Of a stretch of DNA of 64,000 bases, positions 18,228-57,370 are shown in pieces. Position 1 is the stretch's first letter. Each line of letters starts with the position of its first letter. The translations under genes and the position numbers were made by a program. This stretch comes from Planctomycetota bacterium. Lineage in GTDB: Bacteria > Planctomycetota > Phycisphaerae > UBA1845 > UTPLA1. The notes below the pieces were generated by a model that saw only the letters and a program-made list of their open reading frames with translations, did no database searches and was not told where the DNA came from. The stretch spans positions 186,001 through 250,000 of the forward strand of contig QEVG01000002.1 in the NCBI GenBank assembly GCA_003576905.1. Reading direction: 5' to 3'.

Positions 18228-19883
18228 TCAATTGGGCGTGGAAGCTCCCGCAACGTTCGGCGGGCGGTCCGGCGCGGAAATCGGCGGGAGCGGCGCATGC
18301 GATGAATCCCACAGGTCGGCCGCCGTTGCCGCCCTGTAGGCGGCCTCGGCCTGGAAAAATGCGGTGGCGGCATCGGCCTCGAGCGCCGCCGTCGTCGCCG
18401 TGGCCTCCTCGCGCAGGTTCACGAGGAGAATCGTGCTGTTGCCCAGCTCGAAGCTCTTGCGTTCGCCCGCCTCCACCTCTCGCGCGTAGCGGAGACTTTC
18501 CCGCGTGCGCACCAGGCGATCGTGTGACGTCACCAGTTCGGAGACTGCGTTGCGCACGTCGGCCGCCACCTGATCCCTGGCGTATCGCAGTTCGGCGGCG
18601 ATCTTGCTCAGCTTGGCGCGCGTGCTTCGGACCTTGCCGCGGGCATCGCGCAGCCAGAGGGGCATTTCAAACTGCACCTTCCAGGCCAGCTCGGCCGGCG
18701 TCCGGTCCATTGTCTCGGGCGCCCGGTCGAAGTCCTTTGAGGCTTCGAGCAGCATGTCCACCTTCGGAAGGAGCTTGTTTTCGGCCTCGCGGAAGTCCAC
18801 GCGCGTCCGTTCCGCCAGCAGGCTCAGCTCGCGCGTTTCGGGCCGCCATGCCAGTGCCATATCAATGGCGTCCTGGAGGGAACCCAGATGCGGCGAAGCC
18901 GCCTCGGGAAAGACCGGCGGAAGCCGCGCCGCGTCCGGCAGAACCGGGTCGCCGCTTTCGTCCCGGAGAAACAGGGAGAGCAGAATCGTCGATTCCTGGA
19001 AGCCCCGTTCCGCGGCGATGACAATGGCCCGGCGCAGCTCGATCAGCCGTTCGTTATCGATCAGTTCGAGCCGGGGCAGGTCGCCGCTGTCCACGCGCCG
19101 GCGCAGCGCGCTGTTGCGGGTCTCGGCGAGGTCAAGAAGAGACCGCGCAATCGAGAGTTTCTGTCCCGCCCCGACCCACTTCCAGTAAAGCTGCGCCGCC
19201 TTTCGTCGAAAGGCGATCCGCTTGAGCTGGATCTTCGGCTCCGCCAGGTCGACGTCGATTCTGGCCCGCTGGAGTTTCGCCCGCCGCGCGTCGATCGGGC
19301 CGCCCTGGAGGATCGGCACCTTCACGCCCGCGCGCACCTCGCCTCCGCGGTCGGTCCGAAGATCGTCGTCGTACGAGGGAAAATCTCCCTGGCCCCACCG
19401 GTAGCCCGAATAAAAGGTCGTGCCCCACAGCGGCGTCGGCTGTTCGAAGACGCTGTTGAAGGTGTCGTACCGATAGTATCCCTGCGGCTTGTCGAGCAGT
19501 TCGGCTCGCGCGGTCAGATCGAAGCCACCCTCCGCCGACAAAAGGCCACCCTCGGCGATGTTCAGTTCCTCCTCCACCGCCAGGAGCAGCGGGAATCGGG
19601 CGTCCACCGAGTCCAGCACTTCGTCCATCGAGAGCGGCGCGTCCACGCGCACCGGCGCCGTCGTCGTCGACGGCGGCGTAAGCGGGGCGAGGGCGTCAGG
19701 CGGCGATTCTGAAACCGCCGCCGTCTGCCGGGGCGGTTCATTCACCGGGTACATCGGGCGTGCCGCGGCGGACATCGCCTCGCTCACCCGGCGCGGGCTA
19801 TTCGGTTCGCCGAAACCGCACGCCGCGGCGCACACGACGCACACGACGCACACGGCGATGACCCTGGGAGCAAAGCCGTTCAT
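18228..19883 (-). CDS. TolC-family outer membrane efflux lipoprotein
   Basis: 551 residues. A lipoprotein signal peptide with a CAAAC-type lipobox lies at residues 14-22, then a proline-rich linker, then two TolC repeats (about 75-310 and 320-520) rich in long amphipathic helices. It is the outer-membrane channel of a type I secretion or efflux system. Its ATG overlaps the HlyD stop (ATGA). The signal peptide is encoded across three tandem nine-base repeats, giving VCVVCVVC. Confidence 0.9.
   Translation of the reverse strand: MNGFAPRVIAVCVVCVVCAAACGFGEPNSPRRVSEAMSAAARPMYPVNEPPRQTAAVSESPPDALAPLTPPSTTTAPVRVDAPLSMDEVLDSVDARFPLLLAVEEELNIAEGGLLSAEGGFDLTARAELLDKPQGYYRYDTFNSVFEQPTPLWGTTFYSGYRWGQGDFPSYDDDLRTDRGGEVRAGVKVPILQGGPIDARRAKLQRARIDVDLAEPKIQLKRIAFRRKAAQLYWKWVGAGQKLSIARSLLDLAETRNSALRRRVDSGDLPRLELIDNERLIELRRAIVIAAERGFQESTILLSLFLRDESGDPVLPDAARLPPVFPEAASPHLGSLQDAIDMALAWRPETRELSLLAERTRVDFREAENKLLPKVDMLLEASKDFDRAPETMDRTPAELAWKVQFEMPLWLRDARGKVRSTRAKLSKIAAELRYARDQVAADVRNAVSELVTSHDRLVRTRESLRYAREVEAGERKSFELGNSTILLVNLREEATATTAALEADAATAFFQAEAAYRAATAADLWDSSHAPLPPISAPDRPPNVAGASTPN
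19829..19855. repeat. Three tandem nine-base repeats inside the TolC signal peptide
   Basis: The unit CGCACACGA occurs three times head to tail, the last copy differing in its final base. It encodes a VCV-type repeat in the signal peptide. Because the unit is a multiple of three, copy-number change would lengthen or shorten the signal peptide without breaking the frame. Confidence 0.8.
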
Positions 19884-21223
19884 TTCGCCTCCCTTTTCCC
19901 GCCGGCCGTCTGCGGCATCTTGTCCATCGCCACGGTCGGGGGGAAGCCGTTGAGCTGCCGCCAGATTTCATAGCCCGCGCGCACCTGGTCGAGCAGCACC
20001 CATCCATTGGCGCGCACCCCCTGGCGCAGATACCTTCGATCCGGCCACGGCTCGTCGTTTGCGTCCGGGACCACGAGGATTCGAAACATGCCCTGCCCGT
20101 CATCCTGGGCATCGACCAGCGCGACGCGCCCGCCAAAGGTTCCCACGGCCACGGAGGGCCAGCCCGAAAACTGCACGGCGGGCCACCCTTCGAACTGGAG
20201 CCGCACCGCGCGCCCCTCGGTGATGAGCGGGGCGTCGTTGCCGTCCACCCAAAGCTCGACCGCGAGGCTCTCGGTGTCGGGAACGAGTGTCAACAAGGGG
20301 TCACCCTGCTTGACAAGCTCCGCGCCGGGATTCGCCAGCATTCGCAACACCCGGCCGTCGCGCGGCGCCCGGACGACCTGCGTCTTCTGCCGCTCCAGCT
20401 TCACCCGCGCGTCGGTCAGATCCTTCTCCGCCAGGGCGACGTCGCCCTGCGCCGCATTCAGCTCCGCGCGGGCCTTGTCCACCTTCGCCTGGGCCTCCTT
20501 GCCCTTCTGGTCGCGCTCCGATCGCTTCGCGGATTCCTCGGCGCGGGCGGCGTCCACCTTGGCTTTTTCCGACTTCACCTTGGCCGCGGCCGCCTTGTAA
20601 TCGCGTTCGGCTTTCTGGGCGGTCAACTCCGAGACGATTCCCTCGCTGGAAAGCTGCCGCTGCCGGTCGAAATCGAGACGCTTCTGTTCCAGGTCGGCTT
20701 CGGCGGCGGCCAGAGCATTTTCCGCCGCGATGACCTTGTTCACCGCGCTGGTGACCAGGCTGTCGGCCGCGGCGACGGTCAGCTCGCGCGCGTCTTCCAG
20801 CGCCGCGACCACCTTCACCGACGCGGCGACCTTGTCGACCCCCGCATCGCGCTTCTGCCGTGCGGCTTCGTATTGCTGCTCCAGCCGATCCATCAGTCCC
20901 GGGTCCTGGTCGGCGATCTCCAGCAGTCGGTCGCCGGACTTGACGACCGACCCTTCCAGCACCCAGCAATGAACGACGCGGCCGGACACCGGCGCCTGAA
21001 TCGTCTGTTGCCGCTCCAGGGGCGCGAACGCGGAAACCCGGCCCGTGCCGCGCACGTTCTGCTGCCACGGCACGAGCAGCATGACGACCGGCATGGCGAG
21101 AAGGACCCACGCGAGGAGTCGCGACATTCGGCGGACGAATCGGGGCGATTCTACCAGGCCCACGGCCGGCAATTCCTCGACCGCCGCTTCGACACCCAAC
21201 TGGCGATAGGCGACATTATGCAT
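19880..21223 (-). CDS. HlyD-family membrane fusion protein
   Basis: 447 residues. A single transmembrane helix (about 35-55, LLAWVLLAMPVVMLLVP) is followed by a lipoyl-like half (IQAPVSGRVVHCWVLEGSVVKSGDRLLEI), a long alanine/lysine/glutamate coiled-coil hairpin (about 95-260), the second lipoyl half (VVRAPRDGRVLRMLANPGAELVKQGDPLL) and a beta-barrel domain. It links the inner-membrane ABC exporter to TolC across the periplasm. ATG at 21223 with GGAG upstream overlaps the ABC stop by eight bases; the stop overlaps the TolC start. Confidence 0.93.
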   Translation of the reverse strand: MHNVAYRQLGVEAAVEELPAVGLVESPRFVRRMSRLLAWVLLAMPVVMLLVPWQQNVRGTGRVSAFAPLERQQTIQAPVSGRVVHCWVLEGSVVKSGDRLLEIADQDPGLMDRLEQQYEAARQKRDAGVDKVAASVKVVAALEDARELTVAAADSLVTSAVNKVIAAENALAAAEADLEQKRLDFDRQRQLSSEGIVSELTAQKAERDYKAAAAKVKSEKAKVDAARAEESAKRSERDQKGKEAQAKVDKARAELNAAQGDVALAEKDLTDARVKLERQKTQVVRAPRDGRVLRMLANPGAELVKQGDPLLTLVPDTESLAVELWVDGNDAPLITEGRAVRLQFEGWPAVQFSGWPSVAVGTFGGRVALVDAQDDGQGMFRILVVPDANDEPWPDRRYLRQGVRANGWVLLDQVRAGYEIWRQLNGFPPTVAMDKMPQTAGGKREAK

Positions 21224-22955
21224 GACTCCGCCGCTCCTTTCCATCGACCGGATTTCTATTATCGTCCGCATCGGACTCCTCGTCCGCGCGTGTCATGCGC
21301 ACGACCCGATCCATCCGCGCCAGCACGTCATCCCCGTGCGATGCGACAAGCAGCGTCCACGGTGCGCTGCGATCCAGCAGCGTCTCGAGCACTTTCCTCC
21401 GCGGCCGTACCTCGATGTCCTCCAGCGATTCGTCGATAACCAGAAGCGCCGGTTCGCCCACGATGGCCCGCGCGATCTGAAGACGCCGCGCCTGGCCTGA
21501 CGACAGTGGGGCACCCCCGGTCGTCAGAACCGTATTCAGGGCGTCCGGCATCCGCAGCACCTCGTCGAGCAGGTCGACGGCCGCCAGCGCCTCGCGAATG
21601 CGTTCGTGGGTAATCTCGTCGCGGCCCAGGCGGACGTTATCGAGAATCGTCCCCTCGAACATCTCGAAGCCCTGAACAATCGCGACCGTGCGCCGCAGCT
21701 CGTCGAGCCGCAGGTCGCGCAGATCAACGCCGTCCAGCTCTATTCGTCCACCGGTCGGCGTGCGCATCGCGAAGAGCAGCTCCACCAGCGTGCTCTTTCC
21801 GCTGCCGTTCGGCCCGACGATTCCTACGCGCTCTCCCGGCTCGATTCTCAGCGTAAAATCGCGAATCGCCGGCGGCGAGCCCTCATAGGCGAACGTCAGA
21901 GAATCCACCAGCAGTCGCGCCGGGCCTTTCGCGCGGGTCCGTGCATCCCCGCCCTGGCGCTCCGCGGGAAGGTCCAGGAGCTGCCCGAGTTTTTCAACCG
22001 CCGCCATGAGGTCGTAGAAACTTTCGAGGTGCTTGCCCAGCTTGGCGAACGATGCCACGACAAGCGTAACGATAAGCTCGGCTGCGACCAGCTGGCCCAG
22101 GGTCATACGCCCTTCGATGACCAGCCAGCCGCCGATGCCCAGCAGGGCGGTGCTTGCCACCGCCTGAAGCGCCAGGGCTCCAACCGTCTGGCGAAAGAGG
22201 ATGCTGAAATGCCGGCTCCGGTTGGTCAGGTACTCGCGCGCCAGCAGGTCCGCCCGTTCCAGCGCGTACTGCGGCCCGCCTCCGAGCTTGAACGCCAGCG
22301 GGTGCCGCGCCATCTCCTCGAGCCAGCCCGCTACCTGGTACTTTGCGTACGATTCGTCGATCGATGTGGCGATCGCCCGGCGACCCATGACGAAGATGAT
22401 GATCAGCAGCAGGATGAGCAGCACGACGTCGAAAGCGAGCAGGATCGGGTGGTAGAAAGCCAGGACCAGCATGCCGATGGTTCCCTGGAGCAGGATCGCC
22501 AGCCCGTCGAGCAGGAGCTGCGCGCCCACCTTCTGCACGGTCAGTACGTCAAAGAACCGATTCACGAGTTCGGGCCCGTGCGTCCGATCGAAAACGTCGA
22601 CGCGGACGCGCGGAAGTCGGTGCGCCAGCCGCGACACGACGCGCACGAAGATACGCCGTTGGATGATTTCCAGTACATAGGTCTGCATCGCCCGCAGGGC
22701 CGCGCTGATGGTCAGCCCGAAAAACAGAAGTGCCGTCAGCACGATCAGCGGCTGTAAGAGGCTGCCGAACGCGACCGTGTTGACGAGAAGCTGTACCGCC
22801 ACGGGAACGGCCAGGGTCAGCGCGCCGACGCCGATCGAGTACAGCACGACCGACCAGATGTCCGACTTCTCGGGGCGAAGCAGGGCCATCAGCCGTCCGA
22901 ATGGCGACGGGCCTACTTCTCCATGTAAATGCGTGTGCTTGAACAGCGTATTCAT
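21216..22955 (-). CDS. Type I secretion ABC transporter, permease plus ATPase
   Basis: 579 residues: a six-helix permease domain (about 25-320), then an ATPase domain (about 345-560) with Walker A GPNGSGKS, the Q-loop glutamine in AIVQGFEMFEG, signature LSSGQARR, Walker B LLVIDES and the H-loop in VASHGDD. There is no N-terminal C39 peptidase domain, so it does not cleave a double-glycine leader itself. First gene of an operon with HlyD, TolC, the 51-residue gene and the SirB1-like gene. The cargo is unknown; no RTX protein is present in the window. Confidence 0.93.
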   Translation of the reverse strand: MNTLFKHTHLHGEVGPSPFGRLMALLRPEKSDIWSVVLYSIGVGALTLAVPVAVQLLVNTVAFGSLLQPLIVLTALLFFGLTISAALRAMQTYVLEIIQRRIFVRVVSRLAHRLPRVRVDVFDRTHGPELVNRFFDVLTVQKVGAQLLLDGLAILLQGTIGMLVLAFYHPILLAFDVVLLILLLIIIFVMGRRAIATSIDESYAKYQVAGWLEEMARHPLAFKLGGGPQYALERADLLAREYLTNRSRHFSILFRQTVGALALQAVASTALLGIGGWLVIEGRMTLGQLVAAELIVTLVVASFAKLGKHLESFYDLMAAVEKLGQLLDLPAERQGGDARTRAKGPARLLVDSLTFAYEGSPPAIRDFTLRIEPGERVGIVGPNGSGKSTLVELLFAMRTPTGGRIELDGVDLRDLRLDELRRTVAIVQGFEMFEGTILDNVRLGRDEITHERIREALAAVDLLDEVLRMPDALNTVLTTGGAPLSSGQARRLQIARAIVGEPALLVIDESLEDIEVRPRRKVLETLLDRSAPWTLLVASHGDDVLARMDRVVRMTRADEESDADDNRNPVDGKERRSHA

Positions 22956-25033: not shown

Positions 25034-25136
25034 CGGACATCAGGGCCGCGCGGCGGATTGCCGGCCCGATTATCTATCTTATGGAATCCTGGGCGGCCAT
25101 TCGGTATCCTGACATGTGAACCGGAGGGCGATTCAG

Positions 25137-25421
25137 ATGGCCGAGTCCCAGTCATTGCGAAGTTCGTTTCGCCGTTTCTTTGAGGGCTATCTCAGCAGTC
25201 TCGGGGGGCGCAGCGCATTTGGGCGGCTCATCCAGCAGGCCGTCGACGACGACAATGTCCGCCGGAATCTGATTGATTCGCCAATGGAAACTCTTGCCGC
25301 CGCCGGTGTCGTTCTGCATGAAGGCGTCGTCGTGGAAGTCCTGGAGAACACGGACCGCGTCATTCATATTGTCCTGCCGCCCCTCGTCACGGCCGAGAGC
25401 CCGCGGAGCTTCCCGTCATGA
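25137..25421 (+). CDS. Stand-alone NHLP (nitrile hydratase-like leader) domain protein
   Basis: 94 residues. Residues about 29-83 match the nitrile hydratase-like leader peptide domain: LIQQAVDDDNVRRNLIDSP, then LAAAGVVLHEGVVVEVLENT, then IHIVLPP. Members are usually nitrile hydratase subunits or precursors of ribosomally made, modified peptides (TOMM). Here the tail after the domain is short (LVTAESPRSFPS), with no Gly-Gly cleavage site, cysteine or core-like region, so a modified peptide product is unlikely. ATG at 25137 follows GGAGG (25123-25127) and is preferred to the GTG at 25116. The next gene starts within its stop codon. Confidence 0.75.
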   Translation: MAESQSLRSSFRRFFEGYLSSLGGRSAFGRLIQQAVDDDNVRRNLIDSPMETLAAAGVVLHEGVVVEVLENTDRVIHIVLPPLVTAESPRSFPS

Positions 25422-26056
25422 AGCCGAACCCCCTTCAGCGCGTCATCGAGAGAGCCTGCGCCGATGCCGCCTACCGAAGCGAATTGATCGCCGACCCGCG
25501 GCGGGTCCTCGCGGACGCCGGAATCGACGTGCCGCGCGACGTCGATGTCCGCATCCATGAATCCCGGGAGGACCGGCTCACAATTGTCCTGCCGGCCCGT
25601 GGTGAATCGTCGCTCGCCGAAAGCCGGTGCCGGCTGCCCGTCGGCCCCGTTTCCGACGTGCCGGAGGGCCTGTCGCTTGAATGGCAGGAATCCCTCAATC
25701 TGCCGAAGCGTACCCTGGTCGTCCGGGGGCGGGTCGATGCCGCCACCGCCCCAGCCATGCGCCGGGAGATCGAGCGCGCATTCGTGAATGTTGACCTCGA
25801 CCTTTCCGGCGTGACCTACATCAGTTCCGCCGGCCTCGGCGCGCTGGTGGCGGCGCAGCAGGGCCTCCGCGGCCGCGACTGCAAACTGTGTCTTCGGCTC
25901 GTGCCTTCAAAGGTGCGAAACATGCTCGAGGTCGCCGGCATGCTGCCGCATTTCGAGGTGCATGACATCGACGAGTATCGCGAGGGCTTTCCCAAGGGGT
26001 CGGCCACGCTCTTCGGCGGCGTCGCCCCGACGAAGCCCATCACCGACGTGCCGTAG
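25418..26056 (+). CDS. NHLP-domain / STAS-domain fusion protein
   Basis: 212 residues. Residues about 1-60 are a second NHLP-type leader (VIERACADAAYRSELIADP, LADAGIDVPRDVDVRIHES, LTIVLPA). After a linker, residues about 95-195 form a STAS domain of the anti-sigma-factor-antagonist type (TLVVRGRVDAATAPAMRREI, VDLDLSGVTYISSAGLGALV, VRNMLEVAGMLPHFEV). The serine pair in YISSAGLG occupies the position phosphorylated by partner kinases in SpoIIAA-like proteins. It is translationally coupled (ATGA) to the preceding NHLP protein. The domain pairing is unusual and suggests that the leader fold acts as an interaction or docking module. No RsbW-like kinase is adjacent. Confidence 0.78.
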   Translation: MKPNPLQRVIERACADAAYRSELIADPRRVLADAGIDVPRDVDVRIHESREDRLTIVLPARGESSLAESRCRLPVGPVSDVPEGLSLEWQESLNLPKRTLVVRGRVDAATAPAMRREIERAFVNVDLDLSGVTYISSAGLGALVAAQQGLRGRDCKLCLRLVPSKVRNMLEVAGMLPHFEVHDIDEYREGFPKGSATLFGGVAPTKPITDVP

Positions 26057-50743: not shown

Positions 50744-51640
50744 TCAATCGCCGTCGTCGGAAGATTTTTCGGTGTCTTCGTCGGATGGTTCGCTGGCCGG
50801 GGCGTCCGCCTCCTCTTCGTCGGCGGTGGCGAGCTTGGCCCGCTCAGTGGCCTTGAGAACCTGCGCGGCGGGCAGGATGAGTCCGCCGCCGATGTCGCGT
50901 CCCATCGACATGAATGCCATCGGGTTGGCTTCAATCTCATCGTCCTCGGGAAGTTGAAGTACGACGATACCGATGAGGGTCCCGTCTTCTGTGAAGATGG
51001 GCTGGCCGGCCTCGACGGAAACGCCCGAGGGCACGTAAAGCTCGCGCGGCTTCTTGGTGTGACCGGACATCTTGCCGTCGCTGACGACGGGGGCGCGGTC
51101 GAAGAACTTCGCCATCCGGCGCAGGGCGTAAAGATCGTCGCCGATTTCGGGGACCGCCCCCTTCTTGATGTCAACGTGGGCGAAAGGCTTCTGGGGCGGC
51201 TCCTTGGCCTGCACCCAGGCGAGGTCCAGTTCGGTGTCGCGGGCCAGCACCTTCGCCGGAATGCCCTCAATGTCGTCTCCGATGAGAATCTTGATGTCAG
51301 TGGGGGTGACACTGCCGAACCGCCGCGGAGCGCCGAGCTTCGAGTTGGCGCACAGCACAAGGCCGGTGGGCTCGATCATGAGGCCCGTGATCTCGCTTTC
51401 GGTTTCGCGCTTGCCATACTGGCTCTCCATTCGAAGCAGGAACTTGATGGTGACCAGGGCCGGGGCGTGCTTTTCTACAATCTGGCGGTAAGCAACGCCC
51501 TCATCGGCGCGCGCCGGTGCGACGACGCAGGCGGGTACGGCGAGGCCGCACACGAGAATCAACGGCAAGGCGGGCGAACCCACCATGCGGGGGGCCAAGC
51601 CGCCCCGCGGCATGTACGAATCAATGTTGCTGCGGGTCAT
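50744..51640 (-). CDS. HtrA-like protein with a lost catalytic triad
   Basis: 298 residues. Signal peptide near the N-terminus, then a trypsin-like fold aligned to HtrA: the histidine position is NS in LVLCANSKLG, the aspartate is retained in DTELDLAWVQ, and the serine loop reads SVEAGQPIFT instead of GNSGGP. A charged acidic tail (EEEADAPASEPSDEDTEK) ends the chain. It should be periplasmic and proteolytically inactive. AAGGAG overlapping the HtrA stop precedes the ATG by nine bases, so it is translated with the active protease six bases upstream. A regulator, scaffold or substrate receptor for HtrA is a reasonable guess. Confidence 0.82.
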   Translation of the reverse strand: MTRSNIDSYMPRGGLAPRMVGSPALPLILVCGLAVPACVVAPARADEGVAYRQIVEKHAPALVTIKFLLRMESQYGKRETESEITGLMIEPTGLVLCANSKLGAPRRFGSVTPTDIKILIGDDIEGIPAKVLARDTELDLAWVQAKEPPQKPFAHVDIKKGAVPEIGDDLYALRRMAKFFDRAPVVSDGKMSGHTKKPRELYVPSGVSVEAGQPIFTEDGTLIGIVVLQLPEDDEIEANPMAFMSMGRDIGGGLILPAAQVLKATERAKLATADEEEADAPASEPSDEDTEKSSDDGD

Positions 51641-51646
51641 GATGCG

Positions 51647-53800
51647 TTACTCCTTGCCGTTCGATTTTTCGGCTTCGTTTCCGAGTTGCGGTTTCCAGTC
51701 GGGCTCGACGAACTGGAATCGGGTCTGCACGCCGCGAAGCACGACGAAGACCACCCGCCGGGGCTGGTCTCTGGTCACCTGCTCCATGGCCCTGCGATAG
51801 CTCTTGAGTCCCTGGATCTGCCGGTCGTTGATGCGGATGATGAGATCGTCCGGCTGAATGCCTCCCAGGCCCGCCCATCCGGCCGATTCGACCTGCTCGA
51901 CGATGACGCCCTTGACGTTTTCGTCCCAGCGGTTGTCGTCGCGGTCGAAAAAGGTGATTTCGCGGACGGTCATTTCAAAATCGCGGTTGCGGTCGCGCCG
52001 GGCCTCCTGCGGGCTGATGCGGGTGCGCTCCAGCTTGACGGTGATGTCGGTCGATTTTCCGTCGCGCAGGACGGACAGCTTGGCCTCGTCATCGATTTCG
52101 AGCTTCCGAAGCTGGCGGGCGAAGAGCCCCGCATCCTGCATGCCGCGCGGGCGGAGCGGCTGACCGTTTAGTGCCGTTATAATGTCACCAACCTTGAGGT
52201 CCGATCGGGCCGCCCGCGAGCGCGGATAGACGCGCGTGATGCGGTAGCCGAGCTGGTCGGGATGGCCAAGCTGCTTCGCGAGCTTGTCGATGACCGGCTG
52301 CGTGGCGACGCCGATCCAGGCCTTGGGGACTTCGCGCGGGGGGTCTTCGTCCTCTTCCGGCTTCGGCTTGAGCAGGGTGATATGGTTCTTGCCGCCGCGG
52401 TCAAACTCGATCAGCAGGTACTCCGGCAGGGGCTTGCTGTCCATGATCTGCCGGTAGCGGTTTACGAGGTCCGCGAGGTCGCGGATCGGCCGGCCGTCGA
52501 TTTTTCGGATGACGTCCCCGTAGGACAAGGGCGGTTCGGCCACCTGAGCAGGCCCGCCCGAACGGATGCTGCCGACGAAGGCGCCGTCCCGGCTGTCGAG
52601 GCGGTATTCGCGGGCCATGCGGTCGGTGATTTCCTCGATGGTGATGCCCCACGCGCGGAGCGCGGTCTCCTCGCCGCGGTCCTTGGTGAGTTTTTCGGTG
52701 AGGACCGCCGCCTCGCTCGATTTCCCATCGCGCTCGTACGCAAGTTTCACGGTCGCGCCGATGGCGACGTCGGCCAGGTTCTTCATGAGCGGCGGCACTT
52801 CCTCGGCGAAGCGAACAGTGACCGGCCGGCCGTCGATCACGGTGATGACGTCTCCCGCCTTGACCCCAGCCTTTGCCGCCGGGCTGCCGTCGACGACGGA
52901 ATTGACAAGGACGCCATTGTCGAATCCCGTTTTTTCGATGGGTTTGAAGGACAAGCCGATCCAGGAGCGCGGGACCTCGCCGTGCTTGATCAGCGCGTCA
53001 ACGACGGACCGCGCGAGATTGCAGGGGATGGCAAAACCAATGGCGTTGCCTCCCAACTCGTTGATTCCGATGATCTCGCCCTTGAGGTTAACGAGCGGGC
53101 CGCCGCTGTTGCCGGGGTGAATGAGGGCGTCGTGCTGTATCCAGCGGGTGAAGAGACCGGTGCGCTGCCCGGTCTCAAGTTCCATCTCTTCGAGATCGTC
53201 GTCGTCGCCGCCGGCAAAGACGCGCTGCGTGTTGGATACGATCCCGAGCGTCACGCTGCGGGACAGGGCGAGCGGAGACCCCATGGCCATGACGTAGTCG
53301 CCGACGCGGAGATCATCGGAGTTTCCGAAGACGGCGACCGGCAACTGATCCCTCGGCGTTTTGAGCTTTGACAGATCGAGCTGAAGCACGGCGAGGTCGG
53401 TGAGCGGATCTTCACCGATCAGCTTCGCGGGCAGTTCCTGTTTGTCGGCGAGCGTGCATCGAAACTTTTTCCCGTTGTCGGTGACGTGCTGATTAGTAAT
53501 GACGTATCCGTCCGCGGAAATGATTGTGCCGCTTCCGACGGCACTGTCCTTGTGCTCCTTGCCGTCCCAGTAGTTGACCGTGACGACGTGGATGTTCACA
53601 AGGGCGGGGAAGACCTTGTCGCGCGCCGACTGGATGACCTGGCGGAGTCCTTCCCTGAGCTGTTCAGGGGCGGCGGCGTCCTGCCCTGCCGCCGTGCGTG
53701 CGTCGGCCAGTACCGCGGCGACGAAAACGACGAAGGTTGCCAAGGTGGCTCGGATGATACGGTGCGGCCCATTGGCCCGGTTCGGCGCGGCCTGCTGCAT
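51647..53800 (-). CDS. HtrA/Deg-family serine protease with several PDZ domains
   Basis: 717 residues. Signal peptide (ATFVVFVAAVLADARTAAG), then a trypsin-like domain with the complete triad His105 (TNQHV), Asp135 (LTDLAVLQ) and Ser232 (HPGNSGGP). It has about four PDZ-like repeats (about 285-375, 385-480, 500-585 and 615-700), more than the two of DegP. An acidic insert (DDDDLEEMELE) lies at about 199-209. It degrades or refolds damaged periplasmic proteins. The ATG at 53800 follows AGGAAAGGAAG. First of a two-gene operon with the inactive paralogue. Confidence 0.92.
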   Translation of the reverse strand: MQQAAPNRANGPHRIIRATLATFVVFVAAVLADARTAAGQDAAAPEQLREGLRQVIQSARDKVFPALVNIHVVTVNYWDGKEHKDSAVGSGTIISADGYVITNQHVTDNGKKFRCTLADKQELPAKLIGEDPLTDLAVLQLDLSKLKTPRDQLPVAVFGNSDDLRVGDYVMAMGSPLALSRSVTLGIVSNTQRVFAGGDDDDLEEMELETGQRTGLFTRWIQHDALIHPGNSGGPLVNLKGEIIGINELGGNAIGFAIPCNLARSVVDALIKHGEVPRSWIGLSFKPIEKTGFDNGVLVNSVVDGSPAAKAGVKAGDVITVIDGRPVTVRFAEEVPPLMKNLADVAIGATVKLAYERDGKSSEAAVLTEKLTKDRGEETALRAWGITIEEITDRMAREYRLDSRDGAFVGSIRSGGPAQVAEPPLSYGDVIRKIDGRPIRDLADLVNRYRQIMDSKPLPEYLLIEFDRGGKNHITLLKPKPEEDEDPPREVPKAWIGVATQPVIDKLAKQLGHPDQLGYRITRVYPRSRAARSDLKVGDIITALNGQPLRPRGMQDAGLFARQLRKLEIDDEAKLSVLRDGKSTDITVKLERTRISPQEARRDRNRDFEMTVREITFFDRDDNRWDENVKGVIVEQVESAGWAGLGGIQPDDLIIRINDRQIQGLKSYRRAMEQVTRDQPRRVVFVVLRGVQTRFQFVEPDWKPQLGNEAEKSNGKE

Positions 53801-54012
53801 GCTGAGCTTCCTTTCCTGAATTGCAATTGATCGATCGCTTCGAATCCCCGGCAATTCGCACCCATGGCGGGTCCGATGAGTTTCAGGGATTGACCGGCCG
53901 GCTGCAAGTGCAGGCAATACGACCGGGGTTCGGAAGCAGTGAACTTTCCAGTAGAGGGCAGGGCGCGGACATCACGCCGGTCCTAAACGAGTAATCGGCC
54001 GTCGGTTGGCCC

Positions 54013-57000
54013 TCAGGCGCCGGTTGCGGCGGGGGGGGCGGGTTGTCGCGAGGTCAAAGTCACGCGGTTGCGGTCGTCGGCGGCCGGCTGGGGAGGGGAC
54101 TGGGTTTCTCCGAGGGTCTCCTTGAGCCATTCGTTCAGCTTCCTGTTCCGGGCGACTATCTCCCCAAGCGATGCCTGGGCAGGTGCGCCGGCGGCGGGCG
54201 TGGGACCCTGCGGCGCCTTCGATCCAACCGGCACGGCGGGCGGACGGACCCGGGCGCGGCCGGGCCGCGGGGGCGCCCCAACCGGGCGCGCCTCGTCCGT
54301 CGAGAGCTGCTCGGAGAGCACCGAGCGGAGGTTCTCCATTTCCTTCGGGACGACGCTGCGGCAGAGTTCATCGGCCTGTTCGAGACGCGAGCGAATCTGG
54401 GCGATGCGGGCGCGGGCGTCCATCGAACCGTAAAGCTGTCGGACGATTCCGACGAGCTGACCGACCCGCGAGGTCTGCGATCGGAGGATTTCGAGCTTCT
54501 CATCGGCCTGGGCCACGGCGCGTTCGACATTCTCCTTCCGATCGACGGCCTCGCGGGCGGTGTCGCCGAGCTGCTCGAGAATCCGGGAAGTATTTCGGGA
54601 AAGCTGGGCCAGCGCCGCGGCACACCGACCGGCTTCGTCGATCTGCTCGCGGGGCATGGCGAGGAGTTCCTCGGTCTTGCGGCAGACTTCCTCGCCATGA
54701 CGAATGACTTCCTCGGCGCGGGCCCGGGCCTGTTCCTGCGCCTCCAGAAGCTGGCGGGTAGTCCTGGCGGAATCGTCGCGGGCTTCGATCATCTGGATCT
54801 TCGCGGCGTGGATGCTTTCGCGGGTTTCCTCGCCTTCCCGAATGGCATGCAGGCGCATGTCGCGGATTTCGGAGGAGACGCGTTGTGCCACCTCATCGGC
54901 ACGGGCGAGAATCTCCGCCGCCTGCGTCGCCGACTGGGCCGCGGACGTGCGCGCGTCCGCCAGCAGCCTGTCCGCTTTTTCGGAGAGTTCGGCCGCGGCG
55001 TCGTGGGCGCGGCCGAGCAGGACGCCCGCGGTCTGCTGGAGGCGGGTGACGGCCTGGTCGGCGTCTCGGCGGGCGGCGAGCATTCGCTCGTAGTGGAGGC
55101 CCACTTCGCGGGTCACGTCGTCGCGGAAGGCGGCAATCTTCCCTGCGATCGTGACCCCGGTCCTCTGGACGGCGGCGGCGCCGGAGCGGGCGGCGTTCTG
55201 AACATCGTCTCCGACACGCACGATGTCGGCCTGGATCGCCGCGGCGCGGTCGGTCATCTGGAGAAGCAGTTCGCGCACTTCGGTCAGGCTGTCGCGCCCG
55301 CGCGCCTTGACTTCGTCGGCGGCGCGGTGGGCGTCATCGATGGCGGCCAGCAGCTGCTGGTTGGCGTGTCGCACTTTCTCGCCGAAATCGGTGGCGGTGT
55401 TTGAGGACTGGCGGCTGACAGCCTCGGTTCGGCGCAGGGCCTCGGCAACGCGTTCCTCGATCTGCCTCAGGGCGGCGGTCAGTTCGTCGCGAATGACGCC
55501 TTCTGTCTGGCGCTTGATCTCCTCGGCGCGGTTTCGGGCTTCTTCGGCCGCGGCCGCCGCCTCGGTGAAGAGCGCCGTGGCCTGCTGGCGTATCTTCCGC
55601 GCGTTCTGAAAGCCGGCCTTTTCCTCTTCGATCAGACGGCTCATATTGACCTTCTGCGTATGCGTGTAGCTGTGCAGCTCGTTGAGTGCCTGGCGGACCT
55701 GGCGCTGCACGATGGCGTTCTGTTTTTCGTTGGCCTCGAGCGCCTCTCGGGCCTGCCGGCGGAGATCCTCGACGACGCTTGCGGCGTCCGCCTGAAGGCG
55801 CTCCGTCTGGCGGGCGCTGTCTCGGAGCTGCGCCGTGAGCTCCCGCACGGCTTCCGTGGTCTGCTCGCGCATCTGTCGCGCGGCTTCGAGATCCGCCTTT
55901 TCGGCCGCGAGCAGTTCGGACACCTGTTGACGAAGTGCCGCGACCTGTCGCTCGGTCTTCTGAAGCGCATCCTCGGCGGCCTGGCGTTCGAATTCCGCCT
56001 CCCTTTCGACCTCGACGCGGGTTTCGCGACCGCGGCGGGATGCCTCGCGCGCGGCCACGCCGATTTCCTCAAGGAACGCCGCGGCCTGACGGCGCATTTC
56101 GGCAATCTCCGCAACATCGATCGCCGCGGCAGTGGCGGAGGCATCGGCGGGGGGCGGGCCGACGAAATGCCGGGCAAATGCACTCTTCGGCGTCCGCGCC
56201 GCGGGCTGCGGCATTCGGACCATCATCTGTTCCGCAATCTCGTTGACAAGGGCCGCGTCCACGCGTTCCGCCGAGCGCGTGTACGCGCCGATGAGGACGT
56301 TGTCGCAAATCTGGTTGATGAGCCGTGGGATTCCGTCTGAATGATGGTAGACGGCGTCGATCGCGTCGGCCGTGAAGATCTCGCGCTCCTCCGGGAGCCC
56401 GGCCACGCGGAGGCGGTGGGCGATATAGCCCGCGGTCATCTCGCGGTTGAGGGCGGGCAGATGAAAAGCGCGAAAGATTCTCTGGTGAAGCTGGCGGAGC
56501 TCCGGCCGGCGAAGGGTGTGCTGGAGTTCGGGCTGGCCGAGAATGAGAACCTGGAGGAGCTTGGCGTCGTCGGCCTCGAGATTTCCGAGCAGGCGAAGCT
56601 CCTCGAAGCACTCGACCGGCAGATTCTGCGCTTCGTCGAGAATGACCACAGCGATGCGGTCCCTTGCGTATTGCTGAAGCAGGAACTCTTCAAGGGCCCG
56701 CGACAGTTCGGGCAGTCCGGATTCCGGAGGAGTCGAAATTTCGAACTCGCGGCAGATCGCCGAGAGAAGATCCTTCGGCGTGAGGCGCGTATTTGTGACG
56801 ACGGCGGTGCGAACGTTGGGGCCGAGGCGGGCCAGCAGGAGACGCGTGAGGAGTGTCTTGCCGGCGCCCACGTCGCCGGAGACGACTGCGAATCCCTTGC
56901 GCTGTTCGGCGGCGAACTGCAGGGACGCAAGCGCTTCCTCATGCTCCGGCGTATTGAAGAAAAAGCGGGGGTCAGGAGTGTTGTTGAAGGGGAGAGCGGC

Positions 57001-57024
57001 GAGTCCAAAGAAATCGCAATACAT
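54013..57024 (-). CDS. ExeA/XrtA-type AAA ATPase fused to a long coiled coil
   Basis: 1003 residues. Residues 1-270 are an ExeA/GspA-like AAA domain of the kind found in XrtA exopolysaccharide clusters: YCDFFGLAALPFNNTPDPRFFF, Walker A SGDVGAGKT, Walker B AVVILDEAQN, and HQRIFRAFHLPAL. From about residue 310 to 920 the chain is nearly pure heptad-type coiled coil, rich in Ala, Glu, Arg and Gln, ending in a proline-rich tail. XrtA-type ATPases normally end soon after the AAA domain, so the coiled coil is a large addition. AAGGAG lies six bases before the ATG. It is divergent from the export gene. Confidence 0.87.
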   Translation of the reverse strand: MYCDFFGLAALPFNNTPDPRFFFNTPEHEEALASLQFAAEQRKGFAVVSGDVGAGKTLLTRLLLARLGPNVRTAVVTNTRLTPKDLLSAICREFEISTPPESGLPELSRALEEFLLQQYARDRIAVVILDEAQNLPVECFEELRLLGNLEADDAKLLQVLILGQPELQHTLRRPELRQLHQRIFRAFHLPALNREMTAGYIAHRLRVAGLPEEREIFTADAIDAVYHHSDGIPRLINQICDNVLIGAYTRSAERVDAALVNEIAEQMMVRMPQPAARTPKSAFARHFVGPPPADASATAAAIDVAEIAEMRRQAAAFLEEIGVAAREASRRGRETRVEVEREAEFERQAAEDALQKTERQVAALRQQVSELLAAEKADLEAARQMREQTTEAVRELTAQLRDSARQTERLQADAASVVEDLRRQAREALEANEKQNAIVQRQVRQALNELHSYTHTQKVNMSRLIEEEKAGFQNARKIRQQATALFTEAAAAAEEARNRAEEIKRQTEGVIRDELTAALRQIEERVAEALRRTEAVSRQSSNTATDFGEKVRHANQQLLAAIDDAHRAADEVKARGRDSLTEVRELLLQMTDRAAAIQADIVRVGDDVQNAARSGAAAVQRTGVTIAGKIAAFRDDVTREVGLHYERMLAARRDADQAVTRLQQTAGVLLGRAHDAAAELSEKADRLLADARTSAAQSATQAAEILARADEVAQRVSSEIRDMRLHAIREGEETRESIHAAKIQMIEARDDSARTTRQLLEAQEQARARAEEVIRHGEEVCRKTEELLAMPREQIDEAGRCAAALAQLSRNTSRILEQLGDTAREAVDRKENVERAVAQADEKLEILRSQTSRVGQLVGIVRQLYGSMDARARIAQIRSRLEQADELCRSVVPKEMENLRSVLSEQLSTDEARPVGAPPRPGRARVRPPAVPVGSKAPQGPTPAAGAPAQASLGEIVARNRKLNEWLKETLGETQSPPQPAADDRNRVTLTSRQPAPPAATGA

Positions 57025-57370
57025 GCCTGACTCCTTAGCGGCAGCGGCGCGGAATGTCCGAGATGCGGGCGCATGCCCGTGCATTGGTTATCGGAAGCCA
57101 TTGCGGGGATGCTTGACGCGTCGAGAATTGCGCGTCGGGCAGAAATTGCCGACGTGATCGCGGCGTGCGGAGAGATCTGGCGGGCATTCCGCGCAAAACG
57201 TGAAAGTATCGGGCCGATTCGCGAAGGTCATATATTCAGTCTGCATCGCTCTCACCCGATAAACCGCCGGCGAGGGATCTGAGGCGGGCGGCCCGCGGTG
57301 GGGCTTCCCAACACGACATGACACGGAATCAATCCGTCACGCGGCATTCGGCCGCGCGGGGTCAAGGGTC
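57025..57370. other. Divergent promoter region of the exopolysaccharide cluster
   Basis: A 346-base gap between two divergent genes. An inverted repeat CGGGC-GCAT-GCCCG occurs near 57068-57081. TATATT near 57231-57236 could be a -10 box for the rightward genes, but no convincing -35 box is seen. It should hold the promoters of both the ATPase gene and the polysaccharide export gene. No short gene with a ribosome binding site was found. Confidence 0.45.

Follow-up and report, generated by a model that had tools for sequence, protein, structure and literature searches.

NHLP domains are described in two settings, RiPP leader peptides and nitrile hydratase. The two are related in passages of Haft et al. 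2010 (PMC2887384), where NHLP is presented as a nitrile hydratase alpha subunit with a deletion of 63 residues which removes the CxxCSC metal site. The same passages describe NHLP tandem gene pairs in Burkholderia (TIGR03795) that are fused in other species. A layout of three helices and two strands is reported, in the section of PMC10858898 concerned, for the MprE7 leader. Furthermore, according to sections of PMC12455567, NHLP leaders bind their YcaO enzyme via folded surfaces, a view derived partly from a modelled complex. On the side of signalling, the anti-sigma factor antagonists RsbV and SpoIIAA consist of a STAS fold, and RsbR is a precedent for proteins combining a regulatory domain with STAS. 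No paper joining NHLP or nitrile hydratase with a STAS domain was found in the open-licence literature, and the first-pass annotation of the DNA presented here likewise named no described system with this pairing. The domains are known individually and the NHLP-STAS combination appears to be new.

The window, i.e. the whole analysed stretch of 64,000 nucleotides, contains on its forward strand two coupled open reading frames at exactly the positions first annotated. Gene 1 (25137..25421, 94 aa) is preceded by a Shine-Dalgarno-like GGAGGG (25123..25128) 8 bases 5' of its ATG. As judged from its reading frame, the TIGR03793 profile and its orthologues P0007 and P0008, it encodes an N-terminal extension (residues 1-27, 25137..25217) resembling the N-terminus of P0005, a fused homologue, one NHLP domain (residues 29-82, 25221..25382) and a tail of 12 residues. 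Gene 2 (25418..26056, 212 aa) encodes a second NHLP domain (residues 7-69, 25436..25624) followed, after a linker, by an RsbV-like STAS domain (residues 84-182, 25667..25963). The genes share an ATGA stop-start overlap (25418..25421) in which the TGA of gene 1 occupies 25419-25421 and the ATG of gene 2 25418-25420, so that their translation is probably coupled. The motifs noticed on first reading (NLIDSP/ELIADP, AAGVVL/DAGIDVP, IHIVLP/LTIVLP and YISSAGLG) are all present. The observation of an NHLP gene pair with its second member joined to STAS is real. A promoter scan of the locus gave no promoter-like site, and terminator-like sites numbered 1 against 1.1 expected by chance. The extension of gene 1 might be a membrane-binding amphipathic helix; its amphipathicity does not clearly exceed that of shuffled sequences (12%, 21%, 3% and 4% of shuffles reach the hydrophobic moments of P0001, P0008, P0007 and P0005, respectively). 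Within the genus, the C-terminal tail of gene 2 (residues 185-212, 25970..26053) with LFGGVAPTKPITD hardly varies; it is missing from the fused homologues, modelled with low confidence (AF2 pLDDT <50) and perhaps a short binding motif. Elsewhere in the window, on the minus strand, lie two neighbouring HtrA-like serine protease genes, the first of them short (50744-53917), and a gene for an ExeA-like AAA protein of 1023 aa with a very long coiled-coil-like extension (54013-57084), all named from reading.

Both N-termini match the NCBIfam NHLP leader model TIGR03793, gene 1 with E 7.1e-12 (45.0 bits) and gene 2 with E 1.6e-13 (50.3 bits), each below the curated cut-off of 50.9 bits. Among six orthologues and fusions, two fall short of this cut-off by 0.1 and 0.7 bits and four exceed it; of the latter, both fusions pass (61.2 and 61.5 bits) only because the scores of two domains are summed, the single domains reaching 29-36 bits. 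Gene 2 also matches Pfam NHase_alpha above cut-off (E 1.6e-8). In an AF2 model of gene 2 built from a four-row alignment (mean pLDDT 75.5, pTM 0.54), a nucleus of three helices (5-15, 17-25, 27-33) and two strands (45-50, 53-57) precedes the STAS domain, and Foldseek matches the model to the MprE7 leader structure 8tb1 (E 3.8e-3, 62 columns, 34% identity). The proposed leader-like fold thus reappears in the prediction. The window proteins share with the NHLP/proteusin leaders this rigid nucleus of three helices and two strands; they differ from them in lacking the ELS..EL..AGG cleavage region and a core peptide and in being joined to STAS.

The assignment of a STAS domain to the second protein is borne out by Pfam STAS_2 (E 4.1e-13) and STAS (E 2.8e-11), both above cut-off, and by TIGR00377 below its cut-off (E 1.1e-12, 47.8 against 53.45 bits). 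In a VIA-align search with the gene 2 model, RsbV ranked first (6m36_B, Z 16.3, rmsd 1.3 over 97 residues). The second serine of YISSAGLG, Ser137 (25826..25828), is invariant in all five aligned gene 2 orthologues and fusions and stands at the position of the phosphoacceptor serine of SpoIIAA/RsbV. The residue before it is Ser or Gly in the NHLP-STAS proteins in place of Asp. As a mark of a dead switch this is uninformative, since Ser also occupies the position in 9 of 50 other STAS loci (by a loose motif scan, with no motif obtained for 4 of the 50). The gene 2 protein thus resembles RsbV/SpoIIAA in its STAS fold and serine position, and departs from them in its N-terminal NHLP domain, in the residue before the serine and in that no kinase is recognised alongside. 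With the RsbR/YtvA type it shares the placement of a non-STAS module N-terminal to STAS (YtvA 2mwg is among the Foldseek matches listed for gene 2). The N-terminal fold is another one, however, NHLP here and globin-like in RsbR, and a second NHLP domain comes from a separate gene.

The gene pair is kept in all three genomes of the genus that were searched (the own genome, G112 and G113). Among these, dN is 0.35-0.39 for gene 1 and 0.21-0.30 for gene 2, with dS of 1.10-1.36 and 1.18-1.74, respectively; the resulting dN/dS of about 0.14-0.36 is a rough figure, as dS exceeds 1 and is near saturation. By this measure the pair appears to be under purifying selection. Outside the genus the arrangement is rare. 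Within the order, 22 of 114 genomes match a gene 2 query at E 1e-5 or better; the N-terminus is included only in the three genus members, and the other 19 matches start at residue 45 or later and comprise mainly STAS. Within the class, 3 of 397 genomes, all of the same genus, are matched by an NHLP2-STAS profile at E 1e-16. In the phylum sample, the profile at E 1e-9 matches 120 of 392 genomes, and among the matches listed, those of full length come from the own genome, G174 and G243 (3 of 392 genomes sampled, to which the genus mates G112 and G113 are additional); two further ones, both from G477, cover NHLP only and the rest begin at residue 67 or later. TIGR03793 itself at E 1e-5 is found in 11 of these 392 genomes, three of them NHLP-STAS carriers. 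At E 0.1, exactly two NHLP matches are obtained per genome in the five carriers, all within the NHLP-STAS system. The own genome contains no NHLP match at E up to 1 beyond genes 1 and 2, and no nitrile hydratase alpha match at E up to 0.01 except gene 2 itself. Phyla beyond Planctomycetota were covered by two contig-collection scans and a plasmid search: the scan with an alignment gave three loci, all titled planctomycetes, the scan with a single protein gave no relative, and tblastn of plasmids with P0005 gave no match.

In another class, the two genes have single-chain counterparts. G174 encodes one protein of 288 aa and G243 an open stretch of 260 residues, both with the order NHLP-NHLP-STAS, and 2 of 9 genomes sampled from the class of G243 have such a protein. 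In G243 an in-frame TAG (L055 11633-11635) separates an N-terminal stretch from NHLP1; this copy may therefore be broken, split or misassembled. By BLASTP, residues 1-81 of gene 1, including the extension, align with residues 1-83 of P0005 at 40% identity, and residues 4-183 of gene 2 correspond to residues 101-275 of P0005 (32% identity). A gene 1 profile from the three orthologues prefers domain 1 of P0005 (52.4 against 10.0 bits) and an NHLP2 profile its domain 2 (34.1 against 23.6 bits), i.e. P0005 is collinear with the window pair. On P0006, the NHLP2 profile again prefers domain 2 (36.7 against 28.5 bits), and the gene 1 profile scores both domains nearly alike (25.4 and 24.8 bits). In a STAS tree of 45 rows, the five NHLP-STAS sequences form a single group with support of 93/92, below the 95/80 mark; 94% of 200 bootstrap trees contain it. 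The fusions have a long branch in this tree, its remaining rows were selected by their match to the profile, and 10 of the 50 loci had been removed beforehand as shorter than 70 residues or interrupted by a stop. Since the fusions match both genes, the domain order is kept and the STAS domains group, the two genes of the window seem to represent one protein in split form. The earlier suggestion of the first protein as a partner for the second is backed by the conserved pair and by the single-chain homologues of the same order, which argue for one origin and a functional link of the two. Together with the dN/dS values, genus-wide conservation and fused homologues make a chance origin of the pair very unlikely. 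The Burkholderia NHLP tandem pairs of TIGR03795 are similar as two-gene pairs with fused counterparts elsewhere; in the passages describing them they lack STAS and are thought to be TOMM precursors.

The comparison with nitrile hydratase concerns the arrangement of the two domains. The NHLP-STAS profile hits the alpha subunit 7qop twice with overlapping profile positions, at residues 56-106 (weak, i-E 0.047) and 126-186 (i-E 1.5e-6), matches 1v29 likewise twice (i-E 0.072 and 1e-6) and gives the same double match (47-104 and 127-169) on a planctomycete alpha subunit (L057 9415-10017). When the halves of alpha subunits were compared by single-sequence phmmer, the similarity was weak, with E 0.004-0.006 in one comparison. 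Judging from the overlapping profile hits, nitrile hydratase alpha seems to contain the NHLP unit twice, as an internal duplication, with the metal site between the two copies. The combination of NHLP1 and NHLP2 may thus copy the layout of nitrile hydratase alpha (PF02979), whose second repeat is matched by the NHLP domain of gene 2 (E 1.6e-8). The window system differs from it in being divided over two chains, in the added STAS domain and in the absence of CxxCSC, which a pattern scan found in none of the eight system proteins. In the fold searches, STAS matches filled the listings and nitrile hydratase was not among the matches listed.

The hallmarks of RiPP systems are mostly missing. A pattern scan of the eight system proteins detected no motif 2 of the type ELSDEELxxVAGG with its Gly-Gly cleavage site. 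Among other NHLP proteins of the phylum, this motif occurs in L035 and L042 by pattern and in L033, L034, L037 and L047-L050 by eye, and was not found in L031, L036, L041 and L046 (translations of the minus-strand loci L031, L033, L039 and L045 and of L032 were not used, with L033 scanned for the motif only). L035 and L042 from G184, a genome with seven NHLP matches, and L037 from G291 carry tandem NHLP domains followed by an IAGG/VAGG site and are probably RiPP precursors. A bare Gly-Gly lies in the conserved post-STAS tail of P0002-P0004 (LFGG) and within the STAS domain of P0005; no variable core follows the tail LFGG or the Gly-Gly near the end of P0007 and P0008. Gene 1 extends 12 residues beyond the nucleus, variable in the genus and without a preceding motif 2, and gene 2 runs on into STAS. 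Modifying enzymes (YcaO, LanM, radical SAM) were not recognised near the pair by eye. The neighbours of the pair differ within the genus. An isocitrate dehydrogenase-like gene (icd, named from reading, 76% identity) lies upstream of it in the own genome and G113 and does not do so in G112. On the downstream side, G113 has a ClpS-like gene (named from reading; L051 16105-16446) some 20 bases after the pair and in the same orientation, which is not the case in the window. The window also contains an export cassette of TolC, HlyD-like and ABC transporter genes (18228-22955, minus strand) between a SirB1-like gene (named from reading) and icd. In G113 the orthologues of SirB1-like (69% identity) and icd stand side by side. 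The difference marks an insertion or a loss next to the NHLP pair, and the cassette, considered as a part of the system, was rejected as lying outside the conserved unit.

With this evidence, several other explanations can be weighed. The proteins could be proteusin-type RiPP precursors or recent derivatives of such that are modified, cleaved and exported. TIGR03793 is itself a RiPP leader model, the cassette lies 0.8-5.5 kb upstream of icd, and the gene 1 orthologues P0007 and P0008 of G112 and G113, though not gene 1 of the window, have a Gly-Gly near the C-terminus. This Gly-Gly, however, leaves merely 2-3 residues, and the cassette proteins score far below the NHLM models (HlyD 39.8 against a cut-off of 156.2 bits; ABC 208.5 against 853.3 and 200 against 709.4 bits). 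The NHLM HlyD model TIGR03794 is not matched above cut-off in any of the five carriers; G477 was positive, and G388 negative though NHLP-bearing. As neither motif 2 nor a core nor an NHLM HlyD exporter was found, we consider this explanation very unlikely. The idea that the leader fold is used here outside its RiPP role is strengthened by a real NHLP nucleus joined to STAS in no recognisable RiPP setting. The nearby ABC exporter also bears on a second possibility, in which STAS would be a MlaB-like regulatory subunit on an ABC ATPase, tethered or tuned by the NHLP pair. A fold match to 6xgz_B (Foldseek E 1.4e-4, VIA Z 13.0) and a weak mlaB profile match (E 0.0044) point this way, but antagonist-type proteins score better in profile and fold comparison alike and the cassette is not beside the pair in G113, which makes a MlaB-like role unlikely.

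The NHLP domains could also be a sensor of small molecules that comes from nitrile hydratase alpha and drives the STAS switch by other means than protein docking. This would account for the NHase_alpha match of NHLP2 and would have parallels in layouts of sensory domain and STAS such as YtvA and RsbR. The lack of CxxCSC in all eight proteins and the protein contacts by which solved NHLP leaders work, according to the cited sections of PMC12455567, render such a sensor unlikely. Finally, the genes might encode two independent small proteins on a shared transcript, NHLP1 having a role of its own as a domain that is complete alone, and the fusions being accidental. That the pair is kept throughout the genus despite partly different neighbours, and fused in another class with matching domain order, makes independence quite improbable.

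The explanation we prefer, to which we give nearly an even chance, is that genes 1 and 2 together specify a single regulatory protein with NHLP1 and NHLP2-STAS as its two chains, in which a metal-free NHLP pair resembling nitrile hydratase alpha regulates a partner-switch STAS protein. As NHLP leaders bind YcaO by folded surfaces, we propose that NHLP1 binds NHLP2, most likely packing like the two repeats of nitrile hydratase alpha without a metal site, and that the pair forms a rigid interaction module which docks a partner and thereby would control STAS. The ATGA overlap would keep the two chains near a 1:1 ratio. STAS would act as an RsbV-type partner-switch element, with Ser137 phosphorylated by, or bound to, a separately encoded RsbW-type kinase and a target being freed as a result. 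RsbW-type HATPase genes are present in all five carriers. The own genome has ten HATPase_c_2 matches at E 1e-3, two of them strong and a third barely above the cut-off; G112, G113, G174 and G243 have 2, 2, 5 and 9, respectively, at E 1e-8. None lies on the contig of the pair (C2) or in the contig region of the pair or fusion in the other four genomes, and inspection of the neighbourhoods by eye showed neither a kinase nor a phosphatase or sigma factor beside the pair. This counts against the two-chain regulator, as does the fact that the two strong genes of the own genome (C29:4036-4359 and C51:24824-25207) already adjoin STAS-like matches 135-177 bases away (weak, E 0.009 and 0.15). The undiscriminating P0006, the TAG in G243, the STAS tree support, the weak first repeat of 7qop and the AF2 model of a natural fusion (pTM 0.46), which does not fix the mutual packing of the two NHLP domains, were also counted against it.

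The occurrence of NHLP twice before STAS, as coupled genes and as a fusion, suggests that a few planctomycetes have put the leader fold to new use as an interaction module with a regulatory role. That a conserved tandem without core and metal is attached to a signalling domain points to a use of the fold beyond its two described roles. It is somewhat less than an even bet that the nitrile hydratase/proteusin leader fold has a third role of this kind, in which a metal-free tandem, on a single chain or on two, would gate a STAS partner switch. The small two-gene system and its natural single-chain versions allow direct tests of NHLP docking and STAS control. An NHLP profile match by itself should not be taken as a marker of a natural-product precursor. 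If the third role proves true, NHLP would serve bacterial signalling generally as a domain for protein docking, and an older interaction domain might then be the source of both RiPP leaders and nitrile hydratase alpha.
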